A DNA stretch of 12,970 nucleotides from a bacterium (GTDB lineage Bacteria > DYJV01 > JALVYZ01), in the NCBI GenBank assembly GCA_027037705.1, contig JALVYZ010000167.1:1-12970 (forward strand). Reading direction: 5' to 3'. Position 1 is the stretch's first letter; each line of letters opens with the position of its first letter. Below the pieces are notes generated by a model, which was given only the letters and a program-made list of their open reading frames with translations, made no database searches and was not told the DNA's origin. Of the stretch, positions 1 through 12,518 are shown in pieces. Position numbers and translations under genes: made by a program.

Positions 1-123
1 TTGATTTTTATCTCCAAGAAAATCTAAAAAAACAGCTGTAACATTTTCAAAATTTTTTTTAGCCCAGGTAAGGGCGTAATAACTATCTACGCCCCCACTT
101 ATACAAACACCAATTTTCATCAT
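1..123 (-). CDS. PP-loop ATPase, N-terminal fragment (possibly MnmA-like tRNA thiolase); runs off the left edge
   Basis: Only the first 41 codons are present; the rest lies beyond base 1. The product begins [18 protein letters not shown]. The SGGVDS stretch is the ATP-pyrophosphatase (PP-loop) signature, which adenylates a substrate. That motif so close to the N-terminus, followed by a strand ending in VFLDF, fits tRNA 2-thiouridylase (MnmA) and related tRNA-modifying or amidotransferase enzymes, but too little is visible to choose among them. Two ATGs lie in tandem (123-121 and 120-118). The first overlaps the stop codon of the upstream mutase gene in a TAATG arrangement, so translation is probably coupled to it. 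No strong Shine-Dalgarno sequence is visible. The PP-loop assignment is seen directly; the tRNA role is inferred. Confidence 0.75.
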   Translation of the reverse strand, partial: MMKIGVCISGGVDSYYALTWAKKNFENVTAVFLDFLGDKNQ

Positions 124-1805
124 TAAAACATTGCTGGATCTCTGAAAGTTCCATAAACTTCTCTAAAGACATCGCATATTTCTTGTAAAGTGCAATATTC
201 TCTTACACAGTTAATTATATAAGGCATTAAATTATCATTTCTTTTAGCTGCTTCTTTTAATTCTCCTAATAATTGTGCCACTTTAGCATTATCTCTTGTT
301 TCTTTTATTTTCTTTAATCTTTCAATCTGTTTTCTTTCAACTTCAGGATCTATTCTCAAAATTTCAATTGGCTCTTCCTTTTCCTGAACATATTTATTAA
401 CTCCAACAACAATTTTTTCTCCCTTATCTACCTGTTGTTGATAACGATAAGCAGCTTCGGCAATTTCCTGTTGAGGAAAACCAAGCTCTATTGCTTTTAA
501 AATTCCACCTAATTCATCAATTTTATTAATATAAGCCCAAGCATCTTGCTCCATTTTATTTGTTAAAGCTTCTACAAAATATGAACCAGCAAGTGGATCA
601 ATAGTGTTTGTTACTCCACTTTCTTCAGCAATAATTTGCTGAGTTCTTAACGCAATTGTTACAGCATGTTCTGTTGGTAAAGCTAAAACTTCATCAAGAG
701 AATTTGTATGTAAACTCTGTGTTCCACCCAAAACTGCAGCAAGAGCTTCTAATGTTGTTCTTATTACATTGTTATATGGTTGTTGAGCTGTTAATGAACA
801 ACCAGCAGTTTGTGTATGAAATCTTAACATCCAGCTTCTTGGTTTTTTAGCTTTAAATCTTTCTTTCATTATTTTTGCCCATATTCTACGAGCAGCTCTA
901 AATTTTGCTATCTCTTCAAAAAAATCTATATGAGAGTTAAAAAAGAATGATAATCTTCCTGCAAAGTCATCTACATTAAGTCCTCTTTCAATACATGCCT
1001 GGACATAGCCAATACCATCTGCAAGTGTAAAAGCAAGTTCCTGAACAGCAGTAGACCCTGCTTCTCTTATATGATATCCACTTATTGAAATAGTATTCCA
1101 TTTTGGAACATTTTTAGTACAAAATTCAACTGTATCAACAATAATTTTTAAAGATGGTTCAGGAGGTAGCATAAATGTCTTTTGTGCAATAAATTCTTTT
1201 AACATATCATTCTGGATTGTTCCACCAATCTGATCCATTCCTACTCCCTGCTTTTCAGCAACAACTATATACATAGCAAGTAAAATTGCAGCTGGTGGAT
1301 TTATTGTCATTGAAGTAGTTACTTTTGATAAATCAATTCCATCAAATAAAATTTCCATATCAGCTAAAGTATCTATTGCAACACCACATTTACCAACCTC
1401 TCCTCTACTCATTGGGCTATCTGAGTCATATCCCATCAAAGTAGGCATATCAAAAGCTGTACTTAAACCAGTTTCACCATGTTCAATTAAATATTTAAAT
1501 CTTTTATTTGTATCTTCCGCTGTTCCAAGACCAGCAAATTGTCTCATTGTCCATAATCTTCCTCTGTACATTGTAGGCTGAATCCCACGAGTAAAAGGAT
1601 ATGAACCAGGGAAATTTAAATCTTTTACATAGTCTAAATCTTTTATATCTTCAGGGGTGTATAATGGTTTGATTTCCATATCAGAAACAGTAGTAAATCT
1701 TTCAAGTCTCTCTGGAACTTTTTCACATGATTTTTTATAATTTTCTTCCCATATCTCTTTCTCCTTCTGAATTTCACTGAATATTTCTTCATTAAACATT
1801 TTCAT
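123..1805 (-). CDS. Coenzyme-B12 acyl-CoA mutase large (catalytic) subunit; methylmalonyl-CoA mutase family with isobutyryl-CoA-mutase-like active site
   Basis: 560 aa, the substrate-binding TIM-barrel subunit of the methylmalonyl-CoA mutase family, which rearranges acyl-CoA carbon skeletons by a radical mechanism. It lacks the C-terminal B12-binding domain and ends after the barrel and linker, so it needs a separate small subunit, not seen here. Length matches IcmA-type large subunits. Conserved blocks include [10 protein letters not shown] (83-92), GGTIQND (194-200), [10 protein letters not shown] (241-250), RFHTQTAG (328-335) and [10 protein letters not shown] (363-372). By alignment from memory with the Propionibacterium enzyme, Thr196, Gln198 and His245 match its Thr195, Gln197 and His244. 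However, Tyr89 is Phe90 and Arg207 is Gln208, the pair described for isobutyryl-CoA mutase. Position 117 is Ala, not the Asp of 2-hydroxyisobutyryl-CoA mutase. A GGGGGAG Shine-Dalgarno sequence at 1812-1818, six bases from the ATG, fixes the start. The family is certain; the substrate is inferred. Confidence 0.93.
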
Positions 1806-1980: not shown

Positions 1981-2529
1981 TTAAAACTCAAACCCTTCCC
2001 TTTCAGGAATACCTTTGTGATAATAATGTCTTATTTCTTTCATCTCTGTTATAAGATCAGAAATTTCTATAATTTCTTTAGGTGCATACCTTCCTGTAAT
2101 AATTATTTCTACATTTTCAGGCTTATTTTTCAAAGTTGATATTATCTCATCTATTTGTAATAGTTTGAAATCAAGAGCAACATTCAATTCATCAAGAATA
2201 ACTATATCATAATTTCCTGAAAAAATAGCCTTTTTTGCTTTTTCCCAACAATTTTTTGCTAAATCTACATCAATTTTTTCAGGATTTTCTTTACTAACAA
2301 ATTCCTTTCTTCCACACTGTTCTATTTCAACATAAGGAGATAGTTTCTTAATAGAATTTAATTCACCATAATTAATCTGACCTTTCATAAATTGAAAAAT
2401 TTTAACTTTTTTATTATGTCCAGCAGCTCTTAACGCTAATCCAAGAGCTGCAGTGGTCTTACCTTTACCATTTCCAGTATAACATTGAATAAAACCTTTA
2501 TTAATGTTGGTGTTAGTTTTATTATTCAT
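1981..2529 (-). CDS. cobO: Cob(I)alamin / cob(I)yrinic acid a,c-diamide adenosyltransferase (CobO/BtuR family)
   Basis: 182 aa, ATP:corrinoid adenosyltransferase, which moves the 5'-deoxyadenosyl group of ATP to Co(I) corrinoids in the cytoplasm to form coenzyme B12. The N-terminal P-loop TGNGKGKTTAALG (18-30) is the family hallmark. ILDELNVALD (111-120) carries the acidic Asp-Glu pair, TGRYAP (145-150) is the usual late motif, and the C-terminus (EMKEIRHYYHKGI, 162-174, then PEREGFEF) is typical. Its neighbour, a B12-dependent mutase, is a likely consumer of its product. The start is odd: residues 5-10 (TNTNIN) are encoded by a TTRGTG-type hexamer repeat, and a 10-base repeat array begins one base upstream of the ATG, so no Shine-Dalgarno is visible. 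An in-frame TGA at 2544-2542 rules out a longer N-terminus, and the next in-frame Met is residue 49, beyond the P-loop. Confidence 0.93.
   Translation of the reverse strand: MNNKTNTNINKGFIQCYTGNGKGKTTAALGLALRAAGHNKKVKIFQFMKGQINYGELNSIKKLSPYVEIEQCGRKEFVSKENPEKIDVDLAKNCWEKAKKAIFSGNYDIVILDELNVALDFKLLQIDEIISTLKNKPENVEIIITGRYAPKEIIEISDLITEMKEIRHYYHKGIPEREGFEF
2501..2518 (+). repeat. Hexamer repeat inside the 5' end of cobO
   Basis: Three plus-strand hexamers, TTAATG, TTGGTG and TTAGTT, match the TTRGTG word found in the intergenic arrays at 1834-1863, 2674-2695 and 9701-9722, in the same orientation. A hexamer equals two codons, so on the coding strand it reads as alternating Thr/Ile and Asn codons (residues 5-10 of the adenosyltransferase). 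The conserved part of the protein begins right after it. Confidence 0.75.
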
Positions 2530-2673: not shown

Positions 2674-2800
2674 TAAGTGTTGGTGTTGGTGATAGTTTTT
2701 AATAATTTTGAATTATCCATTATCACTAACCTAAACTAACCTCCAACTAACCTTTATAACCTCTATAACCTCTATCCCCTCTCGACTCCACACTCCCGAC
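2674..2800 (+). repeat. Composite short-tandem-repeat block R2 between cobO and the acyl-CoA dehydrogenase gene
   Basis: Order on the plus strand: hexamers TAAGTG, TTGGTG, TTGGTG, ATAG (2674-2695); an AT linker; three CTAACC-containing words (about 2724-2753); three nonamers TATAACCTC, TATAACCTC, TATCCCCTC (2755-2781); then TCGACTCCACACTCCCGAC (2782-2800). This is colinear with the block at 1834-1951. Its last base is the first base of the acyl-CoA dehydrogenase stop codon, so in the mRNA the repeat starts immediately after that gene. Confidence 0.85.
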
Positions 2801-3948
2801 TATTTTATTCCAAGAACATTTCTTGCAATAACAAGTCTTTGAATTTCACTTGTTCCTTCATATAATGTTGTTGCCCTTGCATCTCTATAGTATCTTTCAA
2901 CTTTGTATTCTTCAGCATATCCATATCCACCAAGAATTTGTATTGCCTCATATGTAGCTCTATTTGCTGCTTCTGTCCCATATAGCTTTGCCATTGAAGC
3001 TTCCTTTGTAAAAGGTTGTCCATTTTGTTTTAACCATGCAGCTCTCAAACATAATAATCTTGCAGCTTCAAGTTCTGTCATATGATCAGCAATTTTCCAC
3101 TGAATTGCCTGAAAATTAGCTATTGGTTGACCAAATTGAGTTCTTTCCTTTGCATAGTCAACTGCTATTTCCATTGCTCCAAGGCCTATACCAACAGCCA
3201 TTGAACCAATTCCAATTCTTCCTCCATCAAGAGCAGAAAGAGCTATTTTTAAACCATCTCCTTCATTTCCAAGAAGATTTTCTTTTGGAATTCTTACATC
3301 TTCAAGTGTTATAGGATTTGTTGGTGAACCTTTTTGTCCCATTTTAAGTTCTGCTTTACCTATTGTCATTCCTGGAGTTCCCTGTTCAACCAAAAAAGCG
3401 CTTATTCTTCTACCTTTTGGTGCATCCTTATCAGTTACTGCCCATATAACAATAACTCCAGCAACTTCTGCACTTGTAATCCATATTTTGCTGCCATTTA
3501 AAATATAATAATCTCCATCTTTGACAGCTCTTGTTCTCATACTTGCTGGGTCACTTCCAGCATGAGGTTCTGTGAGGCCAAAAGCTCCTGCAAGGTATTC
3601 TCCAGAGCAAATTTTTGAACAATACTTTTTCCTCTGCTCTTCTGTACCAAATCTATATATGACCTCATTTACCATATTTGTAACACTCATGGTAACACCA
3701 GTTGAAGCACATTTTTTCCCAACTTCAGTCAATGCTAAACTTAGTGGCACAACCCCAACATTAGCACCACCATACTCCTCTGGAATTGTCATTCCCATTA
3801 GTCCCAGTTCTGCCATTTTTTTAATATTCTCAGCTGGGAATTTATGTTCTTTATCTGAAATATCAGCAAAAGGTTTAATCTCTTTTTCTGCAAAATCAGC
3901 AACCATATCTCTTATCATTTTTTCATGTTCCGTAAGAAAAAAATCCAT
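2800..3948 (-). CDS. Acyl-CoA dehydrogenase (short-chain / butyryl-CoA dehydrogenase type)
   Basis: 382 aa, a full-length FAD enzyme that oxidises acyl-CoA to 2-enoyl-CoA and passes electrons to electron-transfer flavoprotein. The N-terminal helical domain is followed by the family signature GLTEPHAGSD (124-133), a central beta-domain with WITSAE (156-161), and a C-terminal helical domain with RTQFGQPI (269-276) and LGGYGYAEEY (339-348). The catalytic base is Glu364 in LYEGTSEIQ, the short-chain/butyryl arrangement. The position used by isovaleryl-CoA dehydrogenase is Gly243, which argues against that enzyme. Butyryl-CoA or isobutyryl-CoA are the likeliest substrates. A Shine-Dalgarno AAAGGAG at 3955-3961, six bases from the ATG, supports the start. 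It stands 70 bases after the amidohydrolase gene with its own candidate promoter, and upstream of the B12-related genes. Family certain; chain length inferred. Confidence 0.95.
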   Translation of the reverse strand: MDFFLTEHEKMIRDMVADFAEKEIKPFADISDKEHKFPAENIKKMAELGLMGMTIPEEYGGANVGVVPLSLALTEVGKKCASTGVTMSVTNMVNEVIYRFGTEEQRKKYCSKICSGEYLAGAFGLTEPHAGSDPASMRTRAVKDGDYYILNGSKIWITSAEVAGVIVIWAVTDKDAPKGRRISAFLVEQGTPGMTIGKAELKMGQKGSPTNPITLEDVRIPKENLLGNEGDGLKIALSALDGGRIGIGSMAVGIGLGAMEIAVDYAKERTQFGQPIANFQAIQWKIADHMTELEAARLLCLRAAWLKQNGQPFTKEASMAKLYGTEAANRATYEAIQILGGYGYAEEYKVERYYRDARATTLYEGTSEIQRLVIARNVLGIK

Positions 3949-7166: not shown

Positions 7167-8462
7167 TTATCTCCCCACTGCTTTGTATTTAAAACCTAAT
7201 TTTTCAATTTTTTTTCTATCATAAATATTTCTTCCATCAATTATTACATTATCTTTCATTAAATCTTTGATTTTAAATAAATCAAGATACTTAAATTCAT
7301 TCCATTCAGTAACAATTACAATTGCATCTGAGTCCTTTGCAACTTCATAAGAATTATCACAATAAGTAATTGAAACATCTTTAAAAATCTTTTTTGCATT
7401 TTCCATTGCTTCAGGATCATATGCTTTGATATTTGCTCCTTCTTTATGTAAAGCGTTAATTATATCAATTGATGGAGCAAGTCTCATATCATCTGTATTT
7501 GGTTTAAAAGCTAATCCCAAAATTCCAATATTTTTACCACTTAAATTACCATAAATTTCTTTTAATTTTCTCACTGGAAATAATTTCTGATAGTCATTTA
7601 TATTTCTAACTTCTTTTAATAATTTAAAATCATATCCCAAATCTTTTGAAATTGCAATAAAAGCATCTAAATCTTTTGGGAAACAAAAACCTCCATACCC
7701 CAACCCTGCATTTAAAAATGCTTCGCCAATTCTTTTATCAAGGCCAATACCCTTTGCAACTTTTTTTATGTCAGCTCCTGCAAGTTCACAAATATTTGCA
7801 ACTGCATTTATAAAAGAAATTTTCATTGATAAAAATGCATTTGAAGCATGTTTTATTATTTCTGCACTTTTTATATCAGTTACAAGAATAGGAGCATTTA
7901 AGGGCTGGTAAAGAGAAATTAAAATTTGTGCTGCTTTTTCATTTTCAACTCCAATTACTATCCTATCAGGGTTCATAAAATCCTGAATAGCTGTGCCTTC
8001 CCTTAAAAATTCAGGATTAGAAGCTACATCAAATTCACAATTATTAACATTATATTTTTCAATAACATTTCTTAACCATTCGCCAGTTCTAACCGGGACT
8101 GTACTTTTTTCAACAATTAATTTGTAACCATTAATATTCGTTCCAATCTCTTTTCCCACTCTTTCTATTGCTGATAAATCAGCACTTCCATCTTCTCTTG
8201 GAGGAGTACCAACAGCAATAAAAATAACTTCGCTTTCTTTTACTCCTTCTGAAATTTCTGAAGTAAAACTTAATCTTTTTTCCCTGACATTTACTTTAAC
8301 TAAATTATCAAGTCCAGGTTCATAAAATGGAATTTTATTATTTTTTAATTTTTTTATTTTATCTAAATCATTATCAACACATATAACTTCATTTCCTAAA
8401 TCAGCAAAGCAAGCACCAGTTACAAGACCCACATAACCAGAACCAATCACAGCAATTTTCAT
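7167..8462 (-). CDS. ugd: UDP-glucose 6-dehydrogenase
   Basis: 431 aa, a complete NAD-dependent enzyme that oxidises UDP-glucose twice to UDP-glucuronate in the cytoplasm, a precursor for surface polysaccharide or lipid A modification. The N-terminal Rossmann fold starts IGSGYVGLVTG (6-16). Other landmarks are VGTPPREDGSADLS (84-97), the substrate-binding NPEFLREG (149-156), Lys204 and Asn208 in KHASNAF, and the catalytic Cys260 in GYGGFCFPKD (256-264 region). The C-terminal Rossmann-like domain has GILGLAFKPNTDD and ends with DGRNIYD. A closely related UDP-sugar dehydrogenase (e.g. UDP-ManNAc dehydrogenase) is possible but the motifs favour UDP-glucose. GGAGG at 8474-8470, seven bases from the ATG, supports the start; the ATG overlaps the carA stop by four bases (ATGA). 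Confidence 0.95.
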   Translation of the reverse strand: MKIAVIGSGYVGLVTGACFADLGNEVICVDNDLDKIKKLKNNKIPFYEPGLDNLVKVNVREKRLSFTSEISEGVKESEVIFIAVGTPPREDGSADLSAIERVGKEIGTNINGYKLIVEKSTVPVRTGEWLRNVIEKYNVNNCEFDVASNPEFLREGTAIQDFMNPDRIVIGVENEKAAQILISLYQPLNAPILVTDIKSAEIIKHASNAFLSMKISFINAVANICELAGADIKKVAKGIGLDKRIGEAFLNAGLGYGGFCFPKDLDAFIAISKDLGYDFKLLKEVRNINDYQKLFPVRKLKEIYGNLSGKNIGILGLAFKPNTDDMRLAPSIDIINALHKEGANIKAYDPEAMENAKKIFKDVSITYCDNSYEVAKDSDAIVIVTEWNEFKYLDLFKIKDLMKDNVIIDGRNIYDRKKIEKLGFKYKAVGR

Positions 8463-9577
8463 CTATTTTCCTCCATTAACTTAATAAAATTATCAAATAA
8501 ATACCTTGAATCATGGGGGCCAGGTGAACTTTCTGGATGAAATTGAACACTAAAAAATTTTCTACTTTTACATTCAATTCCTTCTAATGTGTTATCATTT
8601 AAATTTATATGAGTAATTTTTACATCTGTAGGTAAAGATTCAGGCATGATAGCAAATCCATGATTTTCAGCTGCAATATGAACTCTACCTGTAGCCAAGT
8701 TTTTAATTGGTTGGTTCCCACCATGATGACCAAATTTTAGTTTATATGTTTTACATCCTAATGCCAGTCCTAAAATTTGATGTCCAAGACAAATTCCAAA
8801 TAAAGGTTTTTTCCCAACTAAATTAGATACATTTTCAATTGCATAATCTACAGCTGCAGGATCTCCTGGTCCATTAGATAAAAAAACTCCATCTGGATTC
8901 ATATCAAGGACATCTTTCCAATGAGTTTTAGCTGAAATAACTTTAACTTTTACTCCTCTTTCAGTAAGTAATCTTAAGATATTCTTTTTAATACCAAAAT
9001 CGTATGCAACAACAAAGTATTTAAAATCTTTTACTTTTTTATATCCATTCTCAATATCCCAATCTCCCTCATCCCACTCATAACTATCTTCACATGTCAC
9101 TTTATCAACTAAATTTTGTCCTGTCATAGGTTTTAATTTTGAAGCCTTCTCTTTTAAATAATTTAAATCAAGATTGATAGAAGATATTACTCCTGGTTGA
9201 GCACCTTTATCTCTGATATGTCTAACAAGAGCTCTTGTATCAATACCTTGAATTCCAACAATTTTAAATTCTTTTAAATATTCATCAAGTGTTTTTTTAC
9301 TTCTCCAATTGCTTGGAAAATCAAAATACTCTTTGACAATAAATCCTTCAACAAAAATCCTATTTGATTCAATATCCTCAAAGTTTACTCCATAATTTCC
9401 AATTTGAGTGTAAGTCATTGTTACTATTTGACCACAATAAGAAGGATCAGTTATAATTTCCTGATATCCAGTCATGCTTGTATTAAAAACTATTTCACCT
9501 TCAGTTTCTCCTATATATCCAAATGAATAACCTTCAAAATATGTACCATCTGAAAGCATTAAAATTGCTTTTTTCAT
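8459..9577 (-). CDS. carA: Carbamoyl-phosphate synthase small (glutaminase) subunit
   Basis: 372 aa, normal full length. The N-terminal CPSase small-chain domain has FNTSMTGYQEIITDPSY (31-47) and GIDTRALVRHIR (111-122). The C-terminal class-I glutamine amidotransferase domain has SNGPGDP (234-240), the nucleophile Cys263 in GICLGHQILG, and His347/Glu349 in QFHPESSPGP. It releases ammonia from glutamine for the large subunit CarB, giving carbamoyl phosphate for pyrimidine and arginine synthesis; carB is not in the window. The Shine-Dalgarno GAGG lies seven bases before the ATG. It is separated from pyrC by 158 bases of repeat-rich DNA, while its own end is fused by an ATGA overlap to ugd. Confidence 0.97.
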   Translation of the reverse strand: MKKAILMLSDGTYFEGYSFGYIGETEGEIVFNTSMTGYQEIITDPSYCGQIVTMTYTQIGNYGVNFEDIESNRIFVEGFIVKEYFDFPSNWRSKKTLDEYLKEFKIVGIQGIDTRALVRHIRDKGAQPGVISSINLDLNYLKEKASKLKPMTGQNLVDKVTCEDSYEWDEGDWDIENGYKKVKDFKYFVVAYDFGIKKNILRLLTERGVKVKVISAKTHWKDVLDMNPDGVFLSNGPGDPAAVDYAIENVSNLVGKKPLFGICLGHQILGLALGCKTYKLKFGHHGGNQPIKNLATGRVHIAAENHGFAIMPESLPTDVKITHINLNDNTLEGIECKSRKFFSVQFHPESSPGPHDSRYLFDNFIKLMEENR

Positions 9578-9594
9578 TTAATTTCCTCGTTTAT

Positions 9595-9697
9595 ATTCGT
9601 GATTTGTTACTCGTTAATGCGTATATCCGTTAATGTGTGGATGCGTATATGAGAATATTAATTTTTATACATCTACGCATCTTCTTTCATCTTCCTT
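9595..9697 (+). repeat. Short-tandem-repeat block R3 between pyrC and carA
   Basis: Four seven-base units (ATTCGTG, ATTTGTT, ACTCGTT, AATGCGT; 9595-9622) match the RTTCGTG word at 2591-2632. The ten-base word ATGCGTATAT is present twice (9617-9626 and 9641-9650). CATCTTCTTT and CATCTTCCTT stand in tandem at 9678-9697. An 8-base inverted repeat, GATGCGTA (9640-9647) with TACGCATC (9674-9681), could form a stem with a 26-base loop in the carA leader. It has no U-tract after it and does not look like a terminator. Confidence 0.75.
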
Positions 9698-9700
9698 AAA

Positions 9701-9722
9701 TAAGTGTTAGTGGTAGTGTTAG
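9701..9722 (+). repeat. Hexamer array downstream of pyrC
   Basis: TAAGTG, TTAGTG, GTAGTG and TTAG follow without gaps, the same TTRGTG-type word and orientation as at 1834-1863 and 2674-2695. It begins 14 bases beyond the pyrC stop codon, so in the transcript it is the first element after that gene. Confidence 0.8.
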
Positions 9723-9735
9723 TTTTCATTAGCAA

Positions 9736-11049
9736 TTATTTAGATAGTTCCTCTTCTAATCTCTTATACCACCAGTCATAAACAATTTCCCCATTAGAAA
9801 TTGTCATTATAGGCCAGCCTTTAAATTTTCTTCCAATAAATGGAGAATTTTTACTTTTAGACTTTATTTCATCTTTTGTATAAACTTTTTCAAGCTCTAT
9901 ATCAATTATTGTAATATTAGCCTTAGCACCTACTTCTATTTCACCTTTCTCTATTCCTACAATTTTAGCTGGTTTAATGGTCATTCTGTATATTAAATCT
10001 TTTAGAGTAATTTTATTATTAAGCACAAGCTGATAACATACAGGAAAAGCAGTTTCAAGTCCTATAATTCCATTCGGTGCATATTCAAACTCTACAAGCT
10101 TTTCATGTTCTGCATGAGGAGCATGATCTGTTGCAACACAATCAATTATTCCTTCACTTAAAGATTCAATTAATATCTCTTTATCTTCTTCAGTTCCAAG
10201 GGGTGGATTCATTTTGAAATTTGTATCATAATCTGATTCGTATACATCTTTATCAGTCAAGCTTAGATGATGAGGCGTGACTTCACAGGTGACATTAACA
10301 TCTTTATTTTTAAAAAATCTTATTATCTCTACACTTCCTTTAGAGCTTATATGACAGATATGAACTTTAGAACCAGTATATTCAGCAATTTTAATATTTC
10401 TAAATACATTTATTTCTTCTGAAATTGATGGATTTCCCATAATTCCAGCCAATGTTGAATATTTTCCATCTCTCATAAATCCTGTGGCTAAATTTAAGTT
10501 TTCACAATGGCATAAAATTGGGACATTAAAAAATTTAGCATATTCAAAAGCTGTTTTTAATAAAAATGCATTTCTTATATCAACACCATCATCAGAAAGA
10601 GCAATTGCACCTGCTTCAATTAAATTACCAAATTCTGTTAAACTTTCTCCTTTTAATCCTTTTGTAATAGCAGCAACAGGATAAATATTAATCTTTGTTT
10701 CTTTTCCTTTTTTTAAAATATACTTTACTACTTCTTCATTATCAATAACTGGATTGGTATTTGCCATACAGCAAATATCTGTAAATCCACCTTTTTTTGC
10801 AGCTTCTGCTCCAGAAAAAATATCTTCTTTATATTCATATCCTGGATCTCTTAAATGAACATGAATATCAACAAATGAAGGTGTAGCTACTTTACCTTTT
10901 AAATCAAAATGTTGAAAATCTCTATACTCTTTCTTCTCAAGTTCTGATTCATATATGTCAATAATTATTCCATCTTTTATTGCAATATTAAAAATGCCAT
11001 TAAAATCTTTTACAGGATTTACAATTTTTAGATTTTTTAAAACAATCAT
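9736..11049 (-). CDS. pyrC: Dihydroorotase
   Basis: 437 aa, a type-I dihydroorotase that cyclises N-carbamoyl-aspartate to dihydroorotate, third step of pyrimidine synthesis. Metal and catalytic residues are all present: His63 and His65 in DIHVHLRDPG, Asp153 in SDDGVDIRNA, His181 in CHCEN, His233 in HICHISS, and Asp308 in ATDHAPH. Having Asp153 at the bridging position is the pattern of the Bacillus/Aquifex-like class rather than the carboxy-lysine of the E. coli enzyme. The C-terminus has the usual NSPFIGRKFKG motif. Its start is three bases after the pyrB stop, as expected for coupled genes whose products act in sequence. The hydantoinase/allantoinase alternative is unlikely given pyrB and carA alongside. 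Confidence 0.96.
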   Translation of the reverse strand: MIVLKNLKIVNPVKDFNGIFNIAIKDGIIIDIYESELEKKEYRDFQHFDLKGKVATPSFVDIHVHLRDPGYEYKEDIFSGAEAAKKGGFTDICCMANTNPVIDNEEVVKYILKKGKETKINIYPVAAITKGLKGESLTEFGNLIEAGAIALSDDGVDIRNAFLLKTAFEYAKFFNVPILCHCENLNLATGFMRDGKYSTLAGIMGNPSISEEINVFRNIKIAEYTGSKVHICHISSKGSVEIIRFFKNKDVNVTCEVTPHHLSLTDKDVYESDYDTNFKMNPPLGTEEDKEILIESLSEGIIDCVATDHAPHAEHEKLVEFEYAPNGIIGLETAFPVCYQLVLNNKITLKDLIYRMTIKPAKIVGIEKGEIEVGAKANITIIDIELEKVYTKDEIKSKSKNSPFIGRKFKGWPIMTISNGEIVYDWWYKRLEEELSK

Positions 11050-11052
11050 TTC

Positions 11053-11982
11053 TTAACTTTCCCCACCACTACCAATTAATAGATAAAGAATTGCCATTCT
11101 CACAGCAATACCATTTTCAACTTGTTCTAAAATTACACTTTTATCTGAATCAGCAACTTCAGATGAAATTTCAACTCCTCTATTCATAGGACCTGGATGC
11201 ATAATTATTGCATCATTTTTTAAATTTTCAAGATATTCTTTTTTAAAACCAAAAAATTTTGCATATTCTCTAATTGAAGGGAATAATGCTTTATTTTGCC
11301 TTTCAAGCTGAACCCTTAACATCATTACAACATCAGCTTCTTTAATCTCATCTCTGAAATCTTTTACAATTTTTACACCTGTTTTTTCAATATCTCTTGG
11401 CATCATCATTGGAGGTGCATAGACTTTTACATTTGCACCAAGTTTTGTTAGTAGGAAAATATTTGAACGAGCAACTCTACTATGCAAAATATCACCAGCA
11501 ATTATTATATTTAATCCTTTAATTCGACCTTTTTTCTCTAAAATTGTGAAAGCATCAAGAAGTGCTTGAGTTGGATGTTCATTTATTCCATCTCCAGCAT
11601 TAACAACAGATGCTTTTAAAATTTTTGATGCAAATTTTGTAGCACCACTTGCAGGATGTCTAATAATTACAACATCACTTTTTAATGCTTCTATATTTTT
11701 TAATGTATCTAAGAATGTTTCACCTTTTTTTACACTACTTGTAGAGGCAGAAAAATTTAAAGTATCAGCACTTAATCTTTTAGCAGCAACTTCAAATGAT
11801 AGTCTTGTCCTTGTGCTTGGTTCATAAAAACAGGTAACAACAGTCTTCCCTCTTAAAGTTGGGACTTTTTTTATTACTCTTTCATTTATTTCCTTAAATG
11901 ACTGGGCTTGCTCTAATATAAACTCAATTTCTTCTTTAGTTAAATCCCTGATGCTAACTAAATCTTTTCTATTGAATTTCAT
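11053..11982 (-). CDS. pyrB: Aspartate carbamoyltransferase, catalytic subunit
   Basis: 309 aa, normal catalytic-chain length. It joins carbamoyl phosphate and aspartate. Carbamoyl-phosphate binding residues lie in EPSTRTRLSF (54-63, Ser56-Thr57-Arg58-Thr59) and HPTQ (136-139); Lys85/Lys86 in SVKKGET correspond to the loop contributed by the neighbouring subunit; RHPASGA (108-114), HSRVARS (167-173), RVQLER (223-228) and HPGPMNRGVE (262-271) complete the active site. MLRVQLERQ favours the aspartate enzyme over ornithine carbamoyltransferase. No regulatory pyrI is nearby. The ATG overlaps the pyrR stop by four bases (ATGA), a standard coupled junction; no strong Shine-Dalgarno is seen. Confidence 0.97.
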   Translation of the reverse strand: MKFNRKDLVSIRDLTKEEIEFILEQAQSFKEINERVIKKVPTLRGKTVVTCFYEPSTRTRLSFEVAAKRLSADTLNFSASTSSVKKGETFLDTLKNIEALKSDVVIIRHPASGATKFASKILKASVVNAGDGINEHPTQALLDAFTILEKKGRIKGLNIIIAGDILHSRVARSNIFLLTKLGANVKVYAPPMMMPRDIEKTGVKIVKDFRDEIKEADVVMMLRVQLERQNKALFPSIREYAKFFGFKKEYLENLKNDAIIMHPGPMNRGVEISSEVADSDKSVILEQVENGIAVRMAILYLLIGSGGES

Positions 11983-12518
11983 TTTAATTTAACATTCTCT
12001 GAAATATATATTTCATCTTTTCCATCATACTCTTTCACTTTAACATGAATTCTTTCTTTTTTTGAAGTTTGAATTCTTTTGCCAACATAATCAGCTTGAA
12101 TTGGGAGTTCTCTATGTCCTCTATCAACAAGCACGCATAATTGGATTGTTTTTGGTCTTCCTAAATCCATTATAGCATCAAGTGCTGCTCTTACTGTTCT
12201 ACCTGTATATAAAACATCATCAACTAAAATAATATTCTTATCGTCAACAGAAAAATCAATTTCTGTACTTTTTAATTCTGGATAATGAGTACTTATTGAT
12301 AAATCATCTCTATATAATGTTATATCAAGGATCCCCTTAGGAATATCAACTCCATACTTTTCTTTGAATAAATCTTTTAATTTCTCAGCAATATAAACTC
12401 CTCGTGTTCTTATACCTACAAGAGCACAATTTTCCATCCCTTTATTTCTTTCAATTATTTCAGCAGCAAGCCTTTCATATATCCACTTCAACTGATTTTC
12501 ATCAGCAATTAATTTCAT
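11979..12518 (-). CDS. pyrR: PyrR: bifunctional pyr regulator / uracil phosphoribosyltransferase
   Basis: 179 aa, full length for PyrR. The PRPP-binding loop IILVDDVLYTGRT (96-108) is exact, IERNKGMENCALVGIRTRG (22-40) matches the family start, DITLYRDDLS (65-74) and VDRGHRELPIQADYVGK (131-147) are signature PyrR blocks. In Bacillus it binds UMP and the pyr leader RNA to cause attenuation, and it can also make UMP from uracil and PRPP. It is the first gene of the pyr operon here. The leader of at most about 150 bases shows no obvious PyrR-binding loop and no terminator hairpin, so an attenuation role is doubtful and the enzymatic role, or another control site, may dominate. The start is set by alignment to the family N-terminus; no clear Shine-Dalgarno is visible. 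Confidence 0.96.
   Translation of the reverse strand: MKLIADENQLKWIYERLAAEIIERNKGMENCALVGIRTRGVYIAEKLKDLFKEKYGVDIPKGILDITLYRDDLSISTHYPELKSTEIDFSVDDKNIILVDDVLYTGRTVRAALDAIMDLGRPKTIQLCVLVDRGHRELPIQADYVGKRIQTSKKERIHVKVKEYDGKDEIYISENVKLK

Follow-up and report, generated by a model that had tools for sequence, protein, structure and literature searches.

A probable isobutyryl-CoA mutase large subunit of the IcmA type encoded beside a corrinoid adenosyltransferase

The adenosylcobalamin (AdoCbl)-dependent acyl-CoA mutases share an established radical mechanism, and methylmalonyl-CoA mutase (MCM; 1REQ, human MMUT) binds the free carboxylate of its substrate with Tyr89 and Arg207. Isobutyryl-CoA mutase (ICM) is represented by the IcmA/IcmB enzyme of Streptomyces cinnamonensis (EC 5.4.99.13), which we take to have Phe and Gln as the corresponding residue pair, and by IcmF of Cupriavidus metallidurans (4XC6), in which a B12 domain, a GTPase, and the mutase are fused. 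In Syntrophothermus lipocalidus, a strain of which is reported to isomerise isobutyrate to butyrate as a step proposed to precede beta-oxidation, Narihiro and co-workers assigned Slip_0757-0760 (large subunit, small subunit, adenosyltransferase, and MeaB) to isobutyrate isomerisation (PMC5017805).

The window analysed here is a stretch of 12,970 nucleotides from a draft genome of 496 contigs that is 92.8% complete. The features that concern us are all on the minus strand:

1..123, minus strand, first part of the following gene, truncated at the contig end; PP-loop ATPase-like and not a B12-binding subunit (reverse-strand frame 2; its start overlaps the mutase stop)
123..1805, minus strand, large subunit of an AdoCbl-dependent acyl-CoA mutase, predicted isobutyryl-CoA mutase type, 560 aa (ORF; PF01642, 795 bits; TIGR00641, 845 bits; HCM 4R3U, 1.2e-185; tree)
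1182..1184, minus strand, codon of Gln208, at the Arg207 site of MCM (alignment; coordinates computed from the ORF)
1455..1457, minus strand, codon of Ala117, which is Asp in 2-hydroxyisobutyryl-CoA mutase (HCM) and speaks against that enzyme (alignment, tree set)
1536..1538, minus strand, codon of Phe90, at the Tyr89 site of MCM (alignment; coordinates computed from the ORF)
1981..2529, minus strand, corrinoid adenosyltransferase of the CobA/BtuR type, 182 aa (PF02572, 222 bits; TIGR00708 above cut-off)
2800..3948, minus strand, short-chain acyl-CoA dehydrogenase (ACAD), butyryl-CoA type, 382 aa (Pfam ACAD domains; PDB matches)

The mutase frame runs from ATG to stop over exactly positions 123-1805, as the preliminary description had it with the strand left unstated, and the plus strand over the same interval contains many stops. 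PF01642, the MM_CoA_mutase substrate domain expected of an ICM large subunit, was the only Pfam domain found in the protein and was covered over nearly the whole profile; the same search found no B12-binding domain. This architecture agrees with the IcmA type, as had been proposed, but it does not separate ICM from MCM, because a Tyr/Arg paralogue in the same genome is built alike (552 aa, with its small subunit encoded separately). An AlphaFold2 model from a 14-sequence alignment had a mean pLDDT of 69, with values below 50 in the loop of residues 80-92 that includes Phe90, too low for a reading of the active site.

Alignment to solved chains places Phe90 (in WTMRQFAG) on the Tyr of 1REQ within the same RQYAG motif, and Gln208 (in EFIAQK) on the Arg of FMVRNT in Propionibacterium MCM. 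The two MCM residues have chain indices 88 and 206 in 1REQ, which are the 89 and 207 of the literature if the chain begins at residue 2, and the site at Phe90 can be equated with Tyr89 because 5REQ has Phe where 1REQ has Tyr. The equivalents of Thr195, Gln197, and His244 are kept as Thr196, Gln198, and His245. All five assignments had been made in the preliminary description and were borne out. The solved IcmF carries Phe at chain position 618 and Gln at 762, which we take to be residues 598 and 742 of the literature after subtraction of 20 extra N-terminal residues, read as a tag. It thus shares both diagnostic letters with the window mutase, but the window protein corresponds to the mutase part of IcmF alone and is only distantly similar to it (309.5 bits).

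We gathered homologues from 60 whole genomes, 80 named genome loci, and plasmid records. In the 129 aligned sequences, positions 90/117/208 read Tyr/Ala/Arg in 65, Phe/Ala/Gln in 63, and Ile/Asp/Gln in one, which is HCM. None of the 129 mixes the Tyr/Arg and Phe/Gln pairs, so the pattern is not a matter of chance; together with the letters of the solved IcmF, this supports the earlier proposal that Phe and Gln mark isobutyryl-CoA mutase. A Streptomyces match from the plasmid records was considered as IcmA and rejected, being a Tyr/Arg enzyme. Two further observations came from the survey: a Syntrophaceae contig (L041:3816-8674) has a Tyr/Arg and a Phe/Gln mutase adjoining, each followed by a small-subunit-like ORF, and one 2.5 Mb draft genome (G033) gave 19 mutase-family matches, far above every other genome searched.

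A maximum-likelihood tree was built with the diagnostic columns masked, from a set without the Streptomyces IcmA and pivalyl-CoA mutase sequences. A single branch with an SH-aLRT support of 95 sets all 65 Tyr/Arg rows, including the human, Propionibacterium, and Sinorhizobium (S. meliloti) MCMs, apart from the rest, and the window mutase, the IcmF-type rows, and HCM lie on the opposite side. The comparison that the preliminary description had called for thus places the window mutase outside the branch with all known MCMs in the set. The residue pair requires one change on this tree, whereas shuffled labels averaged 43. The window mutase pairs with that of genome G001 (same order, 82% identical; support 99) and groups with Syntrophaceae Phe/Gln rows (support 99). 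It does not group with meaA/Ecm; the meaA of Ruegeria (L144) sits on a long branch on the Tyr/Arg side. In the midpoint-rooted drawing the Phe/Gln rows form a grade, but whether this side is a grade or a clade, like the direction of the residue change, depends on where the root is placed.

The gene order in the window is acyl-CoA dehydrogenase, CobA-type adenosyltransferase, mutase. The adenosyltransferase is likely to supply AdoCbl for the mutase, and its position beside the mutase gene recalls Slip_0757-0760; that cluster also holds a small subunit and MeaB, whereas the gene after the mutase in the window is unrelated. The best PDB match of the dehydrogenase is 5ol2_C, followed by short-chain ACADs, and 1rx0 (ACAD family member 8, isobutyryl type) scored much lower (269 versus 381 bits). 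The window gave no Rfam match, and thus no cobalamin riboswitch, at the gathering threshold. On either side of the adenosyltransferase gene (1806-1980 and 2530-2799) are non-coding, repetitive-looking runs, such as AGTGAATAGTGAACAGTGAATAGTGG and CACGAACCACGAGCCACGAATTACGAATCACGAAC. Elsewhere in the window, the minus strand of 8459-12518 carries an apparent pyrimidine biosynthesis run, with ORFs whose translations resemble carbamoyl-phosphate synthase small subunit, dihydroorotase, aspartate carbamoyltransferase, and PyrR.

Same-strand neighbourhoods within 5 kb were compared for 42 Phe/Gln and 38 Tyr/Arg mutases; because the loci are related and the trait changed once, the p-values are descriptive only. 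Epimerase-like genes accompany 1/42 Phe/Gln and 21/38 Tyr/Arg mutases (p 6e-8), and carboxyltransferase genes 2/42 and 16/38 (p 9e-5). Acyl-CoA dehydrogenase genes (nine Phe/Gln loci versus two Tyr/Arg) and enoyl-CoA hydratase genes (five versus none) lean the other way, each near p 0.05. A CobA-type adenosyltransferase adjoins Phe/Gln mutases in G022, G045, and L037. G022 has the dehydrogenase, CobA, and mutase in the order of the window and continues with a small B12 subunit and MeaB, and G045 has the order CobA, mutase, small subunit, MeaB.

The source genome encodes three mutase large subunits. The one on contig C264 has the Tyr/Arg pair (552 aa) and adjoins genes for a small B12 subunit and the end of a carboxyltransferase. 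It is likely to be the true MCM of the genome, which would leave MCM otherwise accounted for. Thiolase and 3-hydroxyacyl-CoA dehydrogenase genes occur together on contig C94, so the cell appears to have separate genes for the methylmalonyl-CoA and isobutyryl-CoA pathways. The third mutase (G000:C62 = L122; L003:1474-3111, minus strand) is a divergent Tyr/Arg enzyme with the motifs RGIHPQGYR and PQNDILKEIIGRG, of a clade shared with G001:C164 and, more distantly, with a Sulfitobacter plasmid. Encoded on the same contig are hydantoinase A and B, molybdenum hydroxylase subunits, and an AMP-binding ligase, together with a small B12 subunit and an epimerase-like VOC protein; the whole looks like a pathway not yet characterised and could be of greater interest than the window mutase.

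Because of the residue pair, the tree position, the gene neighbourhood, and the separate Tyr/Arg mutase beside a carboxyltransferase, we regard the window gene as the large subunit of a two-component isobutyryl-CoA mutase of the IcmA type, with a probability of about 0.85; from sequence and genomic context we infer its substrate, reaction direction, and partner subunit.

There is a small chance that this ICM-like enzyme acts mainly on another uncharged branched acyl-CoA, such as 2-methylbutyryl/valeryl-CoA or isovaleryl/pivalyl-CoA, since Phe and Gln show only that no second carboxylate is held. Position 210 differs among the Phe/Gln subclades (Thr in the window mutase, Ser or Glu in others), which may or may not matter, and Kitanishi and co-workers reportedly found that IcmF weakly accepts isovaleryl-CoA and pivalyl-CoA. 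Against such a substrate, the neighbouring dehydrogenase most resembles butyryl/short-chain ACADs, and the similar published cluster of Syntrophothermus belongs to an isobutyrate degrader.

That the protein is an MCM despite its changed residues is very improbable. It shares the MCM fold, the retained Thr, Gln, and His residues, the family name, and 66% identity with the Tyr/Arg paralogue, but both carboxylate-binding residues are replaced, it lies across the split in the tree from the known MCMs, epimerase and carboxyltransferase genes rarely adjoin mutases of its kind, and another, Tyr/Arg enzyme with MCM-like neighbours is present. In NCBIfam, it passes the cut-off of TIGR00641 (methylmalonyl-CoA mutase N-terminal domain), which confers a family name only, and misses that of the MCM equivalog PRK09426 (696 versus 876), a score that is lowered by its B12 domain being separate; it is also below the cut-offs of the IcmF equivalog (397 versus 1500) and the beta-subunit equivalog. 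The earlier worry that automatic annotation would call it MCM is reasonable, as IcmF-type ICMs are often misannotated in this way (PMC7764203), but the current NCBIfam name goes no further than the family. Equally improbable is a 2-hydroxyisobutyryl-CoA (or lactyl/3-hydroxybutyryl-CoA) mutase: HcmA (4R3U) tops the PDB matches at 621 bits, no solved structure being closer in sequence, and has the same subunit architecture and Gln208, but HCM has Ile90 and Asp117 (chain indices 101 and 128, with Gln at 219, presumably 90/117/208 of the literature after subtraction of 11 extra N-terminal residues, read as a tag) where the window mutase has Phe90 and Ala117, and it sits with haloarchaeal rows apart from the window clade.

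By its description, a large subunit of about 560 aa with Phe/Gln and no B12 domain, the window mutase stands beside IcmA; it differs in that its partner subunit was not found in the draft genome. The 92.8% complete draft yielded only two small B12 subunits, each beside another mutase, and no third, and no true MeaB was found in its 496 contigs. A location just past the contig end was ruled out for both genes, as the 122 downstream bases start the PP-loop ATPase-like gene. The G001 mutase gene is likewise separated from such partners: in that genome MeaB and a third small subunit are encoded together on a different contig. Of the neighbours of that region, the metallo-hydrolase-like gene has no match in the window's genome and the response regulator only paralogues of 24-39% identity. 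Because these neighbours, too, are without a close match, an assembly gap is suggested as the cause of the absence. As an outside chance, the Phe/Gln lineage to which the window mutase belongs, Syntrophaceae relatives included, may have moved to a different uncharged branched acyl-CoA, or may share a small subunit with one of the other two mutases in the cell; in the latter case a single B12 subunit would serve mutases that differ in specificity.

If the window gene encodes isobutyryl-CoA mutase, the large subunit would bind AdoCbl together with a separate small B12-binding subunit, the neighbouring adenosyltransferase providing the cofactor. Homolysis would generate the 5'-deoxyadenosyl radical, which would take a hydrogen from a methyl group of isobutyryl-CoA, and the CoA-carbonyl group would move to the adjoining carbon to give butyryl-CoA in a reversible reaction. 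With Phe90 and Gln208 in place of the Tyr and Arg to which methylmalonyl-CoA is bound through its free carboxylate, the pocket would suit an uncharged acyl chain. The neighbouring acyl-CoA dehydrogenase could then oxidise butyryl-CoA to crotonyl-CoA for beta-oxidation. Carbon from isobutyrate or valine would thereby enter butyrate metabolism, or butyryl-CoA would leave as isobutyrate.

The window mutase belongs, as an ordinary member, to a known family whose enzymes are often misnamed, and it will hold little surprise for the specialist. The reading would nevertheless change the pathway predicted for the organism, from propionate/succinate metabolism to isobutyrate-butyrate interconversion. 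Across many phyla, two active-site letters cleanly divide the members of this enzyme family; the principle is already published, and a check of these two residues together with the gene neighbourhood could mend many annotations.
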